From contig CASEMQ010000011.1 of NCBI GenBank assembly GCA_949289005.1, forward strand, positions 1 to 64,000: a DNA stretch of 64,000 nucleotides. The letters run 5' to 3'. Below the pieces are notes generated by a model that worked only from the letters and a program-made list of their open reading frames with translations, made no database searches and was not told where the DNA came from. Made by a program: the position numbers and the translations under genes. Below are positions 49,898 through 56,466 of the stretch, one piece after another (positions within the stretch are counted from its first letter, which is position 1; each line of letters begins with the position of its first letter). The DNA comes from an uncultured Lentisphaeraceae bacterium (lineage in GTDB: Bacteria > Verrucomicrobiota > Kiritimatiellia > RFP12 > DVOR01).

Positions 49898-50821
49898 TCA
49901 ACGAACGCTGTACTTGACGAAGATAGGCACTTGGACGGAGCGGCGACCTTGGCACTCCGGGCATTGTGGCGAGCCCCAGCGCAACTTTTCCTTGGCCTCG
50001 GCCACGCAGGTCTTGTAACTCTTGCCTTGGTTGTAGTTGCTACGATAGAGTTTCCGAGCCTCGCGCTTGAGTTCGGCCTGGTCGATTTTCCGCCCCGTCC
50101 CCTCGCACGCCAGGCAAGACATGGCCTTGCTTCCACGGGCGACAAAGGTGATTTTCCCGTCGTTGAACGCCGCGTAAACGGTCTTCACGTCGGCAGGGGT
50201 CAGCGTCTCGGTCTCCGCGACCGGCGTCGGCGCCTTGGGTTTCGCCGCCGTGGCCTCCTCCTGAACTTTGCAGTATTTGGCCAAGTTGCGCGTCCCGTAA
50301 CTGTAAATGCCGATACGCTCGAAATGCCCTTTCACCGCGTCGCCATCGGCCAAAAGCGCACCGGGAAGCTCAAGCGCATACTCACGGTATTCCTGCTCGC
50401 CACGCATACGGCTCAGATAGAGCCCGTCGCCGATTTTCCTGACGATAACCATCGTCTGCGAGGAATCGATCCCGAAACTTTCGTCGAACGGTTCGGTTGT
50501 CTCCTCGCGTTTGATGTCATGCAACTTTCCGTCAAAGCCCCACTCGCGGACTTGCTTCAACTCCCCGCCCGACGTCACGGCAAACATCTCCTTCAACCCC
50601 TGCGCCCAGAACCGCGCGAAAACCCTTGACGGAATCGCGCCCTTGCGTTCCTGCGGGTTGATCAGCGTTTGGCGAATGGACTCCTCCGCGCGGGACTGAT
50701 TGGTCTCCGGCGGCGCCTCCTCCTCAGAGATAGAGGCTCCCACGTAGTTTTGCCCCTGCACAACCGTAGGCCAAGCAAAGACCACCACCCCCACAAGCGC
50801 CAAAAACATTACCTTAAACAT
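49898..50821 (-). CDS. Secreted protein with DnaJ-type zinc-finger motifs
   Basis: 307 residues: signal peptide (FKVMFLALVGVVVFAWPTVVQG), a polar middle, and near the C terminus CLACEGTG (~238-245) and CPECQGRR (~287-294), a CxxCxGxG plus CxxCxG pair like the zinc site of DnaJ. AAGGAG precedes the ATG. Secreted proteins with such paired motifs occur in planctomycete-verrucomicrobial genomes; the role is unknown. It is the only member of the six-gene block with an export signal. Confidence 0.75.
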   Translation of the reverse strand: MFKVMFLALVGVVVFAWPTVVQGQNYVGASISEEEAPPETNQSRAEESIRQTLINPQERKGAIPSRVFARFWAQGLKEMFAVTSGGELKQVREWGFDGKLHDIKREETTEPFDESFGIDSSQTMVIVRKIGDGLYLSRMRGEQEYREYALELPGALLADGDAVKGHFERIGIYSYGTRNLAKYCKVQEEATAAKPKAPTPVAETETLTPADVKTVYAAFNDGKITFVARGSKAMSCLACEGTGRKIDQAELKREARKLYRSNYNQGKSYKTCVAEAKEKLRWGSPQCPECQGRRSVQVPIFVKYSVR

Positions 50822-51983: not shown

Positions 51984-52089
51984 CAAGACACACCGCCCCC
52001 GGACACAATCGGTTATGGACACCCACGCACCCAAACCGCCCGGCGCCCCGCCTCCCCAAACTTCTTTTCCAAAAAAAAAATCACTTTCT

Positions 52090-52120
52090 TTGTCACCATT
52101 CCCCCATCCACCCATATAGC
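52090..52120 (+). promoter_or_regulatory. Promoter of the AAA+ cluster
   Basis: TTGTCA (52090-52095) with CATATA (52113-52118, spacer 17) or TATAGC (52115-52120, spacer 19). A run of ten As just upstream (52069-52080 region) could act as an UP element. The first ribosome site follows after about 20 bases. Confidence 0.6.
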
Positions 52121-52153
52121 ATGACGAAAACCCTTAAAAGGAGGAGCTGTCTT

Positions 52154-52357
52154 ATGGCATACGGTACCTATACCACGCGCGACCGCACCTGCGCCACCTG
52201 CACCTGGTGGTGCGGCCCCCGCCGCGTCGAGTTCATCAACCATCGCCCCTACTACATCAAGGCCGAGGCCGGCTCCTACCCCTGCCAAGCCTACCCCGCC
52301 AAAAACACCCGCGCCGTCGACCGCTGCCCCCGCTGGGATCTCTGGGAAAAGCTGTAA
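52154..52357 (+). CDS. 67-residue Cys-rich protein
   Basis: Strong AAAAGGAGGAG ribosome site before ATG 52154. Five Cys: CATC at 13-16, C20, C44 and C58, spaced with Trp residues as CxxCxWWC...C...C-P-R-W. The pattern fits a small zinc-binding protein of the kind often found in phages and mobile loci. First gene of the cluster. Not recognised as a family. Confidence 0.75.
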   Translation: MAYGTYTTRDRTCATCTWWCGPRRVEFINHRPYYIKAEAGSYPCQAYPAKNTRAVDRCPRWDLWEKL

Positions 52358-52402
52358 GGCGCTTTCTCACACAGTTCTTCTAACCACAACCAAGGAGTGA
52401 TT

Positions 52403-52873
52403 ATGGCAATCCCGCCTAACGTAATCAAGGAAATCGCGTCGTTTCTCAAAAAACACGCGGTGGAAATCGCGATTCTCATCAAAGGAGAGCTGACCAAGCC
52501 AGACAAAGACGGTAAGAGCAAAATCGATCATATCGTCGCGTTCCTTCGTGAAGAAGTCGGGCGGCGCGCCAAGGTGTCCGTCAGTCCCGAGGCAATTAAA
52601 TTGGCGCTTTCCTACGTGGAGAAACATGAACTTTCCATGACGATGGAAGATTTGATTAAATTCGTGAAGGGTACATACAAACTGACCCCGGGCGACCGTG
52701 TTTGCATCTATCGCGCGACAACCGACGTGGAAATTCTTGAAATCATGGCTGTCGATACAGACAACAACCCCATTATTTCCCCGACCAAACCGTGGAGCCG
52801 GATTTACCTCGCCATGATGGATTCCTCTCTGGTTTCCGCTTTTGGCGGCAAAGATTTGTTGGTACTGAAGTAA
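52403..52873 (+). CDS. Small protein with shared C-terminal domain, member 1 (soluble)
   Basis: 156 residues from ATG 52403 (AAGGAG upstream). Helical first half (VIKEIASFLKKHAVEIAILI, DHIVAFLREEVG, MEDLIKFVKGTY), then a ~60-residue beta-rich domain ending SAFGGKDLLVLK. That ending recurs in the next two genes (QFNGKEMVILK, QFGSKEMLVLS), which identifies a paralogous family. No signal or membrane helix. Unknown function; placed directly before a AAA+ gene, so a substrate, adaptor or regulator of the ATPase is a reasonable hypothesis. Confidence 0.75.
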   Translation: MAIPPNVIKEIASFLKKHAVEIAILIKGELTKPDKDGKSKIDHIVAFLREEVGRRAKVSVSPEAIKLALSYVEKHELSMTMEDLIKFVKGTYKLTPGDRVCIYRATTDVEILEIMAVDTDNNPIISPTKPWSRIYLAMMDSSLVSAFGGKDLLVLK

Positions 52874-52886
52874 ACAAGGAGCGACC

Positions 52887-53216
52887 ATGTTAACGTTGAT
52901 TAAAAAGGCTCTGCGCGCCGTTTGGAATTTGCTTAAACGCATTGTCCTTCACATCTGCCGTTTCTTTGCGAACATCGTTAAATTCTTCAGAAATCCCAGC
53001 CGACTTGAAAAACTCCGCCAAGACGAAAACCTCATCGCGGTTGCCATCAAGGAGAATCTTGACAGTGGGAACTATCAGGTTGTCGAATGCCTCTTCAACA
53101 AAGAGACGGGCAATATCGTCAATCCGGAGGAAGACGCTCAGATTATCGAAGCGGAAGACCTCGACACCGACACCGAACGTCAGTTTAACGGAAAAGAGAT
53201 GGTCATTTTGAAGTAA
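52887..53216 (+). CDS. Small protein with shared C-terminal domain, member 2 (amphipathic anchor)
   Basis: 109 residues. The first ~35 (TLIKKALRAVWNLLKRIVLH and onward) form a basic hydrophobic/amphipathic helix likely to lie on or in the membrane. The rest is the family domain: DENLIAVAIKENLDSGNYQ, then ECLFNKETGN and the ending FNGKEMVILK. Closest to member 3, which has SNLIAIAIRENLGNGK at the same place. AAGGAGCGACC precedes the ATG, 13 bases after member 1. Confidence 0.75.
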   Translation: MLTLIKKALRAVWNLLKRIVLHICRFFANIVKFFRNPSRLEKLRQDENLIAVAIKENLDSGNYQVVECLFNKETGNIVNPEEDAQIIEAEDLDTDTERQFNGKEMVILK

Positions 53217-53231
53217 ATGAGAGGTGTTACC

Positions 53232-53645
53232 ATGACCGAAAACAGTTCGACACTTTGGGTTCTTCTCGGAGGCGTGGTAGGGTTGACCGCAATCGCGGCC
53301 GCTTTCCTTGCCATGACGAAAAAGAAGAAAATCTCGCTTCCAAAATCGCTTCCCGGCGTACCCGTTACGCCGAAGGCCACGCTGACTTTCCAAGAGATTG
53401 TCGCCCATTTCAAGGATCCGAAAGTGCTCAACCTGCTCAAATCGGATTCCAATCTTATAGCAATCGCCATAAGAGAGAACTTGGGCAACGGTAAAACGCA
53501 CATCATTCTTTGCGTGTTTGACAAGGAAAAGGGTGAGCTCGTTGGGATGGATGGCCCGGCTTCTCCCATCATTTATGAAGTCGAGATGATGGACGCAGAC
53601 TTGATGGCCCAATTTGGCTCCAAGGAAATGCTTGTCCTGTCATGA
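53232..53645 (+). CDS. Small protein with shared C-terminal domain, member 3 (membrane-anchored)
   Basis: 137 residues from ATG 53232, with GAGAGG upstream; the in-frame ATG 53217 right after the previous stop is an alternative. One membrane helix at ~8-28 (LWVLLGGVVGLTAIAAAFLA), a basic KKKK stop-transfer, then the family domain with FKDPKVLNLLKSDSNLIAIA and ending FGSKEMLVLS. Expected topology: short N terminus, domain on the cytoplasmic side by the positive-inside rule. Confidence 0.75.
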   Translation: MTENSSTLWVLLGGVVGLTAIAAAFLAMTKKKKISLPKSLPGVPVTPKATLTFQEIVAHFKDPKVLNLLKSDSNLIAIAIRENLGNGKTHIILCVFDKEKGELVGMDGPASPIIYEVEMMDADLMAQFGSKEMLVLS

Positions 53646-53654
53646 CGATGATAA

Positions 53655-53693
53655 GGCGGGAGTCTTCGTGCACGACAGTTCCCGCCTATTTTC
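53655..53693 (+). terminator. Terminator or attenuator inside the AAA+ cluster
   Basis: Hairpin GGCGGGA...TCCCGCC (53655-53686) followed by TATTTTCT, ten bases after member 3. It could set different transcript levels for the small proteins and the ATPase. Confidence 0.65.
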
Positions 53694-53738
53694 TCACTGC
53701 CACCATATTCTTGTCGCATTTAACCACTCAAGTTCGCC

Positions 53739-54038
53739 ATGCTACCACTTTTACCATTTCTATTGTTCGGTATCGCCGTTGCTGTGATTGGCGGCATCAT
53801 TGTGTACACGATTGTCAAGAAAATCACAGTGGGAAGGCTTCGGGAAATCCTCGCTGCCCATCAAAAGAAAAAGGGGATCCGAATAGTCGCGGCAAAAATC
53901 AAAAAAACGTACAAAGAAGGCAACTATGCGACAGCAGACGTTGGTTTGATGGATGAACAAGGGAACACCCAAACCATTCGCGTCAGATCCGAAGCGGGGA
54001 AGAGCATTTTCGTTCATAAAGGAAAGACATTAATTTAA
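53739..54038 (+). CDS. Small protein with shared C-terminal domain, member 4 (membrane-anchored)
   Basis: 99 residues: N-terminal membrane helix (LPLLPFLLFGIAVAVIGGII), then KKITVGRLREILAAHQKKKG and a short version of the family domain, IRIVAAKIKKTYKEGNYATA with LMDEQGN, which parallels IAVAIKENLDSGNYQ...NKETGN in member 2. It ends SIFVHKGKTLI rather than FGxKEMxVLK. The ribosome site before ATG 53739 is weak. Directly precedes the AAA+ gene by 32 bases. Confidence 0.7.
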   Translation: MLPLLPFLLFGIAVAVIGGIIVYTIVKKITVGRLREILAAHQKKKGIRIVAAKIKKTYKEGNYATADVGLMDEQGNTQTIRVRSEAGKSIFVHKGKTLI

Positions 54039-54070
54039 GCCAGCTTTGACGAAAGAACAAGGAACACGAA

Positions 54071-55459
54071 ATGGCGCATGTTAAAGTCGCAAACAAGACC
54101 TTTGAGTCGCAACCGCTTTCGGCGTTTCTGTCCGCCTGCGCCGGATTTGCGCGGTCAAACGGTTTGCCGAAAGATTTTGATTTGGTGCTTCACCTCAACC
54201 GTGAAAACGCCACGGAGTTCGAAAATACGGCAACACACCTGAAGGCAGCAATCTGGTGCAAAAACCTGCCCGTTCTGACCTCCGCGCAGTCTCAACGCCT
54301 GAGTACATTTGTCTCAACATTACGCCAATGGTTCAAAACCGCGACACTCGAACCTGTCGATGGTTTAAATCAAGTTGCTTTCATTCTCATGCAGACCACC
54401 GAAACGGACACTCCCCCCGCTTTGCCAGACGCTTCGCAATCCCAACCACCCGTTTCGGAAAAAGCAAAAGATGCCGAGCAATTGGCGACCTTCACGGCAA
54501 TCGACCCTAAATATCGTCTTGACCAGATGATTTTGCCGGAAACGCTGAAAAACGACATCTTGACCTCTCTGGAAATCCTTAAAAACAACAAGTTAATTTA
54601 CGAAGATTGGGGTTTTCAAGAGATTGACCCCGTGGTACGGGCTTCGTTGAACTTCTACGGCCCCCCGGGGACCGGGAAGACGATGGCCGCGCATGCGATT
54701 GCCCATGAACTTGGCTGCAAGATTCTCGTAGCGAATTTGGCGGAAATCGTTTCCAAGTATATGGGCGACTCCCCCAAAAACCTAACCAATCTCTTCGCCA
54801 CGGCAAAAGAGACGGGCGCGTTGCTTTTCTTCGACGAGGCTGATTCGTTTTTGGGCAAGCGTCTCTCCTCGGTTTCGGATGCCGCCGGCCAATCGCTAAA
54901 CTCACTGAGAAGCCACTTGTTGCAACTCTTGGAAAACCACAGCGGCATTGTCATTTTTTGCACGAACCTTGTCGGGAATTATGACAAAGCGTTCGAATCG
55001 CGTATTCTCCGTAGCCTCCATTTCACTTTGCCTGACGAAACCGCCCGAACGGAGATCATTAAGAAAATGATTCCATCCAAAGTGCCATTTGAGAATGGCA
55101 CGCGCCCAACGGACGAGAAATTTCTGGAACTCGCCAAAATTGCCGATGGGTTTTCCGGCCGTGAAATCAAAAATGCGGTCTTACAAGCATTGAGCACCGT
55201 TGTCAGTGAAAAGCGTCGCGCTTTTACATTGGAAGACTTCAAGAAAGCGTTCACGAAACGACATGACGAACTGGAACAACTCCACAGGGCCCAAGGGAAG
55301 CTCACCGGAGACCGCGCCAAAGAACTAAGCAAAAAAATCGCGGACAACCTGCAAAACCAAGACTCAACAACTGCCAACAATATGCTCTCTGAGGACACGG
55401 TAAATGAATCGCCGGCAGAGGCAATCAACACCGATGGAAAGGAGTCTGCAAATGCCTAA
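54071..55459 (+). CDS. AAA+ ATPase
   Basis: 462 residues. N-terminal ~140 residues are an unrecognised domain. The AAA module has Walker A GPPGTGKT at 197-204, Walker B LLFFDEAD at 251-258, the sensor-1 region IVIFCTNL, an arginine-finger-type ESRILRSLHF segment and sensor 2 in DGFSGREIKNAVLQAL. The sequence style is that of classic AAA (FtsH/spastin-like) proteins, but there is no protease domain; the tail (~400-462) is helical then polar. It likely remodels or extracts proteins, plausibly the four small paralogues encoded upstream. AAGGA precedes ATG 54071. Confidence 0.9.
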   Translation: MAHVKVANKTFESQPLSAFLSACAGFARSNGLPKDFDLVLHLNRENATEFENTATHLKAAIWCKNLPVLTSAQSQRLSTFVSTLRQWFKTATLEPVDGLNQVAFILMQTTETDTPPALPDASQSQPPVSEKAKDAEQLATFTAIDPKYRLDQMILPETLKNDILTSLEILKNNKLIYEDWGFQEIDPVVRASLNFYGPPGTGKTMAAHAIAHELGCKILVANLAEIVSKYMGDSPKNLTNLFATAKETGALLFFDEADSFLGKRLSSVSDAAGQSLNSLRSHLLQLLENHSGIVIFCTNLVGNYDKAFESRILRSLHFTLPDETARTEIIKKMIPSKVPFENGTRPTDEKFLELAKIADGFSGREIKNAVLQALSTVVSEKRRAFTLEDFKKAFTKRHDELEQLHRAQGKLTGDRAKELSKKIADNLQNQDSTTANNMLSEDTVNESPAEAINTDGKESANA

Positions 55460-56075
55460 TCCTCCTCCCAACATTCAAGCGAACGCTTGCCAAAGGTCTG
55501 GCGTAAGCAACATTTCGTTCACAGTCGTTCAACTGTTTATCGGGGTTTGCCTGATTAACACCATTGCTGCATTAACACATGCAATCAGATGGGAGTTGCA
55601 AAGCGGAAAAGAGTTTGCCTATATTTTTCTTCTCGTTTTTTTATTCCTTTTCCTTATTAAGTATTTTGTTGACGATCTCATGATCAACCAAAGGGGGAAC
55701 GAGAGTCCTTCATGGGCAAAGTCGTTTTTCTTGATGTTGGCTTGGAGTTCATTTTATTCTGCGACCAAGACAATGTCTAAAATCGAATGTTTTAGCGCTG
55801 TCTCAAGCCAAATACCATTCATTGTTACACCTGCAATATTTTCATTGATCGTTTTTTCTTCTTTGGTTACGTTTGCGGACTCCGGCAAAACCATTCTCTT
55901 TGTAGTCTCTGAGAATATCTGCCTAACTGTCGCCCTTGTATGCTTAGCATGCCCTAGCACATATTCAACTCTTTTTCTCTGTATTACTTTAATTCTCTTC
56001 CTATCAATCACGACCATTGAGGTCGTGTTGAACGCCCATGAAAAGCGGACGAAAGGAGCGTGTCATGGCTGCTAA
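55452..56075 (+). CDS. Polytopic membrane protein
   Basis: 207 residues from ATG 55452, which overlaps the AAA+ stop and has AAAGGAG. Five to six hydrophobic helices (for example VVQLFIGVCLINTIAALTHA, FAYIFLLVFLFLFLIKYFV, IPFIVTPAIFSLIVFSSLVT, TLFLCITLILFLSITTIEVV). Conspicuously AT-rich compared with the window. No family recognised. Its translational overlap with the ATPase suggests the two products work together at the inner membrane. Confidence 0.8.
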   Translation: MPNPPPNIQANACQRSGVSNISFTVVQLFIGVCLINTIAALTHAIRWELQSGKEFAYIFLLVFLFLFLIKYFVDDLMINQRGNESPSWAKSFFLMLAWSSFYSATKTMSKIECFSAVSSQIPFIVTPAIFSLIVFSSLVTFADSGKTILFVVSENICLTVALVCLACPSTYSTLFLCITLILFLSITTIEVVLNAHEKRTKGACHGC

Positions 56076-56466
56076 CACGTTTGACGATGAGGATGTGGGG
56101 CGGGAGTTCCGCGGGTATGCGGGGCGGATGGATGGGCCTGAGAAGGTTCAGGGGGAGGTGATCGACAAGGAGGAGAAGCTGAACGGGCTTTTCACGAAGG
56201 TCGAGAAGCTGAAGCCGTTTTGGGAGGACTTCAAGACGATTTTCGCGATGTTGAAGGATGTGGTGGCGGGGCGGTACACGGAGGTGCCGTGGCGGACGGT
56301 GGCGGGTTTGGCGGGGGTGTTGCTGTATGTGCTGACGCCGATTGATCTCATCCCCGATTTCTTGCCCGGAGGGTTCTTGGATGACGCGGCGATGTTGGCG
56401 CTGGCAATCAAGCTGTGCGGGGGCGACCTCGCGAAGTATCGGGAATGGAAGGGAGAAGCACGATGA
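56065..56466 (+). CDS. YkvA/DUF1232 protein
   Basis: 133 residues. The C-terminal half has the DUF1232 signature: PWRTVAGLAGVLLYVLTPIDLIPDF with LPGGFLDDAAMLALAIK, one or two membrane-associated helices. Function of the family is unknown. GAAAGGAG precedes ATG 56065, inside the end of the membrane-protein gene. GC content returns to the high level of the flanks from here on. Confidence 0.88.
   Translation: MAANTFDDEDVGREFRGYAGRMDGPEKVQGEVIDKEEKLNGLFTKVEKLKPFWEDFKTIFAMLKDVVAGRYTEVPWRTVAGLAGVLLYVLTPIDLIPDFLPGGFLDDAAMLALAIKLCGGDLAKYREWKGEAR

Follow-up and report, generated by a model that had tools for sequence, protein, structure and literature searches.

Analysis of a 64,000-nucleotide stretch of DNA from an uncultured Lentisphaeraceae bacterium (contig CASEMQ010000011.1, positions 1 to 64,000; the whole stretch is referred to as the window) revealed a cassette of four small genes, S1 to S4, followed by a gene encoding an AAA+ ATPase. 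S1, S2 and S3 share a C-terminal domain, of which S4 most likely carries a shortened version, and the four proteins differ in the way in which they are predicted to meet the membrane. By the libraries searched this is a new system: S1 to S4 are four families without a described domain that are tied to one ATPase. Searches of an open-access library of papers retrieved no earlier account of the cassette; subscription journals and preprints were outside the scope of this search, so priority is uncertain. The five genes had been listed in a sequence-only reading of the window, and their coordinates, lengths and orientation were confirmed.

52403-52873, plus strand: S1, 156 amino acids; soluble helical N terminus; shared C-terminal domain at about residues 75-156; protein ends in FGGKDLLVLK
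52887-53216, plus strand: S2, 109 amino acids; amphipathic N-terminal helix; shared domain at residues 37-109; protein ends in FNGKEMVILK
53232-53645, plus strand: S3, 137 amino acids; predicted N-terminal transmembrane helix with positive residues behind it; shared domain at residues 51-137; protein ends in FGSKEMLVLS
53739-54038, plus strand: S4, 99 amino acids; predicted N-terminal transmembrane helix; most likely a shortened, diverged form of the shared domain
54071-55459, plus strand: AAA+ ATPase, 462 amino acids; classical (Cdc48/IetA-like) clade

The relatedness of the four proteins was analyzed by shuffling and by profile-profile comparison. Shuffling of the window sequences gave P values for the C termini of 0.001 (S1/S2), <0.0005 (S1/S3 and S2/S3) and 0.0005 (S2/S4); the pairs S1/S4 (0.25) and S3/S4 (0.22) were each nonsignificant alone. 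The N termini gave P values of 0.14 to 0.88 for every pair and are unrelated, as the sequence-only reading had held. Comparison of the protein families (23 to 28 members each) by hhalign revealed 95.5% for S1-S2, 98.0% for S1-S3 and 99.6% for S2-S3. From these comparisons we conclude that the whole domain is common to S1, S2 and S3. S4 is a weak member, with 32% in direct comparison with S2; the match of the window S4 covers just about 28 domain residues (IVAAKIKKTYKEGNY..DEQGN). A divergent sister clade (loci L053, L055, L056, L061 and L064) has the same four positions, V1 to V4, and each of its proteins aligned best with its own counterpart (V1-S1, 93%; V2-S2, 80%; V3-S3, 95.7%; V4-S4, 86.6%). 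Membership of S4 is backed indirectly by this clade because V2-V4 reached 82.1% within it and V4 in turn matches S4. The claim of a domain common to all four proteins therefore stands in full for S1 to S3 and in part, for the first half of the domain, for S4. A relationship between the N-domain of the ATPase and the S domain was rejected (hhalign under 1%).

Part of the domain architecture was taken from an AlphaFold2 model of S2 and part from the alignments. The domain comprises about 85 residues and would begin with a helix, followed by three strands and a second, short helix; a last strand would form the C-terminal end of the protein. The C-terminal ending F-x-x-K-x-[ML]-[VIL]-[VI]-L-x, which had been proposed in a slightly different form, is real and almost fixed in S1 to S3: positions -5 to -3 are hydrophobic, position -2 is leucine in 71 of the 83 S1-S3 proteins, and one residue follows. 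The S2 model shows the order helix-helix-strand-strand-strand-helix with a predicted local distance difference test score (pLDDT) of 68.6 and low confidence at the tail, and the S4 model shows a long helix and a hairpin. A Foldseek search of the PDB with this uncertain S2 model retrieved nothing at E ≤ 0.001, and searches of PDB sequences with the S2 and S3 profiles retrieved nothing credible. For S1 to S4 no credible match was detected in Pfam, NCBIfam, PHROGs or PADLOC; the PADLOC 2.0 models gave no match at E ≤ 1, and PHROGs gave nothing above noise.

The deduced ATPase consists of a variable N-domain (residues 1-140), a single AAA domain (residues 193-320; PF00004, 5e-27) and a lid extending to about residue 395 (AAA_lid_3, 5.6e-5). 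It contains the motifs GPPGTGKT (Walker A), FFDEAD (Walker B) and SKYMG (pore loop), the sensor residue N299 and the arginine finger R311. Walker A, Walker B, sensor 1 and the arginine finger are invariant across 45 ATPase sequences, and the aromatic pore loop K-[YW]-[VM]-G is conserved in the alignment. With these motifs and the lid present, the protein can be assigned by sequence to the classical clade of AAA+ proteins. A peptidase domain was not matched by Pfam in the chain, which ends in a tail of about 60 amino acids after the lid; the description of the protein as an AAA+ ATPase lacking a protease domain was thus accurate. The nearest solved proteins are Cdc48/VCP, AFG2 and Rix7, and the nearest protein in the defence library is IetA (PADLOC E value, 3e-34). 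The ATPase scored 96.6 bits against the NCBIfam IetA equivalog NF042959 (cut-off, 510) and 81.1 bits against the CdvC equivalog (cut-off, 650). Neither an MIT nor a Vps4_C domain was detected in the Pfam scan.

Anchoring was predicted by simple hydropathy. A transmembrane helix was called in 0 of 28 family members of S1, 4 of 28 of S2, 25 of 27 of S3 and all 23 of S4. In place of such a helix, S2 has a strongly amphipathic N terminus (hydrophobic moment, 0.76). The predicted pattern, with S1 soluble, S2 amphipathic, and S3 and S4 transmembrane, is conserved. The charge behind the transmembrane helix is positive, and the shared domain is therefore predicted to lie in the cytosol, alongside the ATPase. 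The S1 counterpart of the sister clade forms the rear part of a fusion with a protein of 640 to 730 residues.

To follow the cassette in other genomes, relatives of the ATPase were collected, yielding 80 loci from genomes of many phyla. Over these loci the S-domain profile matched 136 open reading frames, all of them on the ATPase strand and within 4 kilobases (kb) of the ATPase, and a reversed-sequence control gave 0 matches. At least one S-domain reading frame was present in 47 of the 80 loci, and three or four were present in 40; the remaining loci are contig ends, the divergent sister clade, most of the cyanobacteria or other members of the ATPase family. An S2 profile was searched against 24 whole genomes; 22 of them had matches, and 40 of the 41 matches lay in cassettes. 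In genomes sampled regardless of the ATPase (G155, G207 and G1047), the new matches again adjoin an ATPase. The window S2 and its counterpart at locus L011 match with an E value of 4e-39. Two S-domain matches away from an ATPase, G500:C43:80157-80273 in a Helicobacter genome and L151:15317-15574 in G1047, are possibly solitary copies.

The S domain was found in at least nine phyla as named in the submitters' titles, several of the genomes being metagenome bins: Bacteroidota, Kiritimatiellota, Campylobacterota, Spirochaetota, Bacillota, Cyanobacteriota, Pseudomonadota, Thermodesulfobacteriota and Candidatus Parcubacteria. Two main gene orders occur, S1-S2-S3-S4-AAA and, in Helicobacter and spirochaetes, S4-AAA-S1-S2-S3. 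The point at which the two orders are cut corresponds in the window to the following element.

53646-53690, plus strand: GC-rich RNA hairpin between S3 and S4 (inverted repeat I3; -22.6 kcal/mol, z -3.6)

This hairpin is possibly an attenuator that splits S1-S3 from S4-AAA; it is absent from the terminators listed by the terminator scan.

In a tree of the domains, S1, S2 and S3 fall into separate groups, with 4 label changes compared to 39.8 in shuffles. Because the tree separates them, the duplications that gave rise to S1, S2 and S3 predate the spread of the cassette. One group of Bacteroidales apparently had its S3 overwritten by S2. Distances among the S1 to S4 proteins track those among the ATPases (Mantel r, 0.66 to 0.79), and the cassette of S1-S4 and AAA has evidently spread horizontally. 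The gene partnership is obligatory, and the earlier proposal that differently anchored modules surround one unfoldase as a unit was strongly supported by gene content, order variants, co-divergence and genome-wide co-localisation. The hidden Markov model search that had been suggested as a check linked the domain to the ATPase, and conservation of gene order in relatives, on which the proposal depended, was observed.

Several related loci differ in their companions. A second cassette clade (L055, L056, L053, L061, L064, L068, L082 and L083), from Bacteroidales and a single Brachyspira bin, has as companions a papain/C39-like protein, an HExxH-like protein with a cysteine-containing tail, a radical SAM enzyme or small secreted proteins with DnaJ zinc fingers, and the AAA protein of L068 has a weakly TerB-like C terminus. 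A 307-amino-acid secreted-looking protein with DnaJ-type CxxCxG zinc-finger motifs, encoded in the window at 49898-50821 on the minus strand, resembles the small proteins adjoining sister-clade cassettes. Among the cyanobacteria, the S domain is present in the Trichormus locus L013 and on Planktothrix agardhii plasmid p1 (NZ_LR882935.1; L093, 3959-7026). The plasmid locus has five paralogous S-domain proteins consecutively before the ATPase, a tetratricopeptide repeat protein upstream and a DUF87 protein downstream. At L067, L075, L080, L081, L084 and L086, a related cyanobacterial ATPase has its own four small genes, in a layout analogous to that of the cassette. Their products C2 and C4 have a common C-terminal domain of another kind (hhalign 99.9%) with no detectable homology to S1-S4, and most cyanobacterial companions (C1-C4 of L067 and others) were unsupported by hhalign as S1-S4 relatives.

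In the Helicobacter loci L042, L046, L051 and L058, a gene for a zinc/iron-chelating CxxCxxCC protein (PF03692) and one for a helical protein of about 140 amino acids lie upstream of S4; the latter looks TerB-like, and Pfam confirms the PF03692 gene only. In many Bacteroidales the cassette is preceded by P0, a well-conserved leader protein of about 72 amino acids (L024:676-891, L031:5083-5301, L032:8026-8241, L034:343-561 and six more). P0 was dropped as a guide to function, since elsewhere it precedes dynamin, YkvA-like, EcsC-like or unrelated genes. Members of the ATPase family were also found on Moraxella osloensis plasmid p2 (L095, 4992-7413), followed by three small genes of unassigned kind, and at the record end of Moraxella phage Mcat5 (L091).

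The cassette is rare. It was absent from the 16 other searched genomes of the genus and from 144 of 145 genomes of the order. Among 388 genomes of the phylum, 3 had an S2 match; the corresponding counts were 4 among 393 genomes for a Bacteroidota order and 3 among 249 for an order that contains Helicobacter. The cassette is thus present in about 1% of genomes. In the window it lies between two flanking genes in an island of low guanine-plus-cytosine (GC) content.

52000-56072, no strand: low-GC island carrying S1 to TM6; GC 0.44-0.52 compared to 0.60-0.70 in the background
52154-52357, plus strand: C67, cysteine-rich 67-amino-acid flanking gene; left border of the cassette
55452-56075, plus strand: TM6, ATG start; 207-amino-acid polytopic membrane protein with several hydrophobic stretches
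56065-56466, plus strand: DUF1232/YkvA-like membrane gene; right border

The start of TM6 overlaps the end of the AAA gene, and the gene lies inside the same island; no relatives of TM6 were found in other cassettes. The case for a general link between the YkvA gene and the cassette became weaker, since this gene has host GC content and occurs without the cassette in sister genomes. In sister genome G019, the C67 and YkvA genes are 172 bases apart and form an empty site. In G036 the same slot holds a single gene of 384 amino acids. Its product has a P-loop (VVGFTGSGKTTL) and is hydrophobic in its C-terminal part; judged from these features it is probably a membrane GTPase, and Pfam just hints at a GTPase. 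In G003, three genes with Dynamin_N come after a C67-like gene.

Genes for dynamin-like GTPases were also located after the ATPase in L025 and L029 and nearby in L050 and L032; the contig of L025 is short and has the ATPase at its start, so any S genes would lie beyond its edge. In the 40 genomes with ATPase relatives, a dynamin gene was present anywhere in 12 and within 10 kb of the cassette in 4, compared to 0.21 expected (P = 7e-5). Because this test was post hoc, its sample included the loci where the association was first spotted and the association fails for most cassettes, the link by location is graded as real but partial.

Three functions had been suggested for the cassette: membrane remodelling, quality control and phage defence. 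Membrane remodelling fits best because the anchoring is conserved and dynamin-like GTPases are swapped for, or associated with, the cassette; phage defence is possible, given the patchy and mobile cassette and its IetA-like ATPase. We tentatively favor, at somewhat less than even confidence, a model in which S1 to S4 form a hetero-oligomeric inner-membrane scaffold that is worked by the AAA+ hexamer with ESCRT-III/Vps4-like logic (ESCRT, endosomal sorting complex required for transport) and protects the membrane. S1 to S4 would be subunits of one complex at the cytosolic face of the inner membrane, anchored by the transmembrane helices of S3 and S4; S2 would lie on the membrane by its amphipathic helix, S1 would join from the cytosol, and the homologous C-terminal domains would pack against one another. 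The hexamer would recognise the assembly by the C-terminal strand -F-[GN]-x-K-x-[ML]-[VI]-[VI]-L-x-COOH and thread subunits through its aromatic pore loop, so that the scaffold is disassembled, recycled or reshaped. The job of such a machine might be accessory membrane protection, when the envelope is under stress or a phage attack is in its membrane phase, a niche that dynamin-like GTPases adjoining or replacing the cassette would also serve.

Several points weigh against this model. The AlphaFold2 models of S2 and S4 are weak and uninformative at the C-terminal tail, and no fold match was obtained with them. Tail recognition is suggested by conservation, and a conserved C-terminal strand may just be part of the fold. 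The dynamin link was spotted before it was tested, concerns four loci only, and most cassettes have no dynamin nearby.

The main rival, compatible with much of the same evidence, is an anti-phage module. Here the ATPase would sense or process an infection signal and free or rearrange the anchored small proteins, which would depolarise or block the membrane (abortive infection). This explanation is possible, though we rate it as rather unlikely. IetA is the closest defence protein to the ATPase, yet the score of the latter is far under the IetA equivalog cut-off, and a partner protease of the IetAS kind was not found in the window. The rare and patchy occurrence (1/145, 3/388, 4/393 and 3/249 genomes), the low-GC island with its empty site in a sister genome, the presence on a plasmid and on a viral-flagged contig, and WYL regulators near several cassettes all agree with defence. 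The flanks were inspected for an excess of known defence genes without a control, and no such excess is claimed.

A role in membrane-protein quality control appears unlikely. An Msp1/Cdc48-like dislocase, to which the small proteins would act as adaptors presenting membrane, peripheral and soluble substrates to one hexamer, would agree with Cdc48/VCP, AFG2 and Rix7 as nearest solved ATPases. Differently anchored adaptors with one ATPase-contacting domain would suit adaptor logic, and peptidase-like and large fused proteins are additional companions in one sister clade. However, only about 1% of genomes have the cassette, which conflicts with a housekeeping role; no protease adjoins it in the window; and the small proteins co-vary with the ATPase as tightly as subunits. 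It is highly improbable that the ATPase assembles or secretes a proteinaceous structure in the style of gas vesicles or contractile injection, with the paralogues as structural pieces. An AAA protein with several small paralogues recalls such clusters, and the ATPase of Serratia entomophila plasmids, of extracellular contractile injection system type, is a distant match (36%), but tube, sheath, baseplate, shell or spike genes were identified neither in the cassette of the window nor in the flanks that were sampled, and PHROGs match none of S1 to S4 above noise.

Comparison with known systems sets the cassette apart. IetA likewise has a single AAA domain of the classical clade and is the best defence-library match. 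It pairs with the subtilisin-like protease IetS, whereas the partners of the cassette ATPase are four small proteins with predicted anchors and no protease; an IetS serine protease was not found among the eight genes scanned (cassette and immediate neighbours). AAA proteases of the FtsH or Lon type have a peptidase domain in the same chain, in contrast to the cassette ATPase. Segregases of the Cdc48/p97 and AFG2 type have the closest solved AAA domains but contain two of them and another N-domain. Pairs of bacterial dynamin-like GTPases are found next to the cassette or following a related flanking gene; their proteins are unrelated to those of the cassette and the link is by location only. 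Bacterial PspA/Snf7-AAA operons join membrane-bound proteins with AAA+ ATPases, and membrane remodelling was proposed for them (PMC11237479, the text of which does not mention dynamin). The cassette differs from these associations in that none of its proteins was identified as PspA, Toastrack or band-7.

ESCRT-III/Vps4 (Cdv in archaea) is alike in logic, as several small paralogues that associate with the membrane and have conserved C-terminal tails are combined in it with a single AAA ATPase. It differs in its helical Snf7/PspA fold, the shared domain of the cassette being beta-rich; no Snf7/PspA-fold match to S1-S4 was obtained in Pfam or NCBIfam, and the S2 model combines helices with a beta domain. 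A defining feature of each of IetAS, ESCRT/Cdv and the AAA proteases was tested and is lacking, so the cassette is placed outside all three. By analogy, the cassette may nevertheless work like ESCRT-III/Vps4; for threading disassembly of a membrane polymer, which we infer, the conserved trace is the pore-loop motif only. A more doubtful extension is that the cassette would be a mobile bacterial ESCRT counterpart made from unrelated parts, with four anchor-swapped versions of a new domain and a dedicated AAA+ hexamer, interchangeable with dynamin-like GTPases. Should the ATPase really act on the anchored paralogues as its substrate, a machine resembling ESCRT would have been built by bacteria out of unrelated parts, and the dynamin link would place two classes of membrane-shaping nucleoside triphosphatases in one protective programme.

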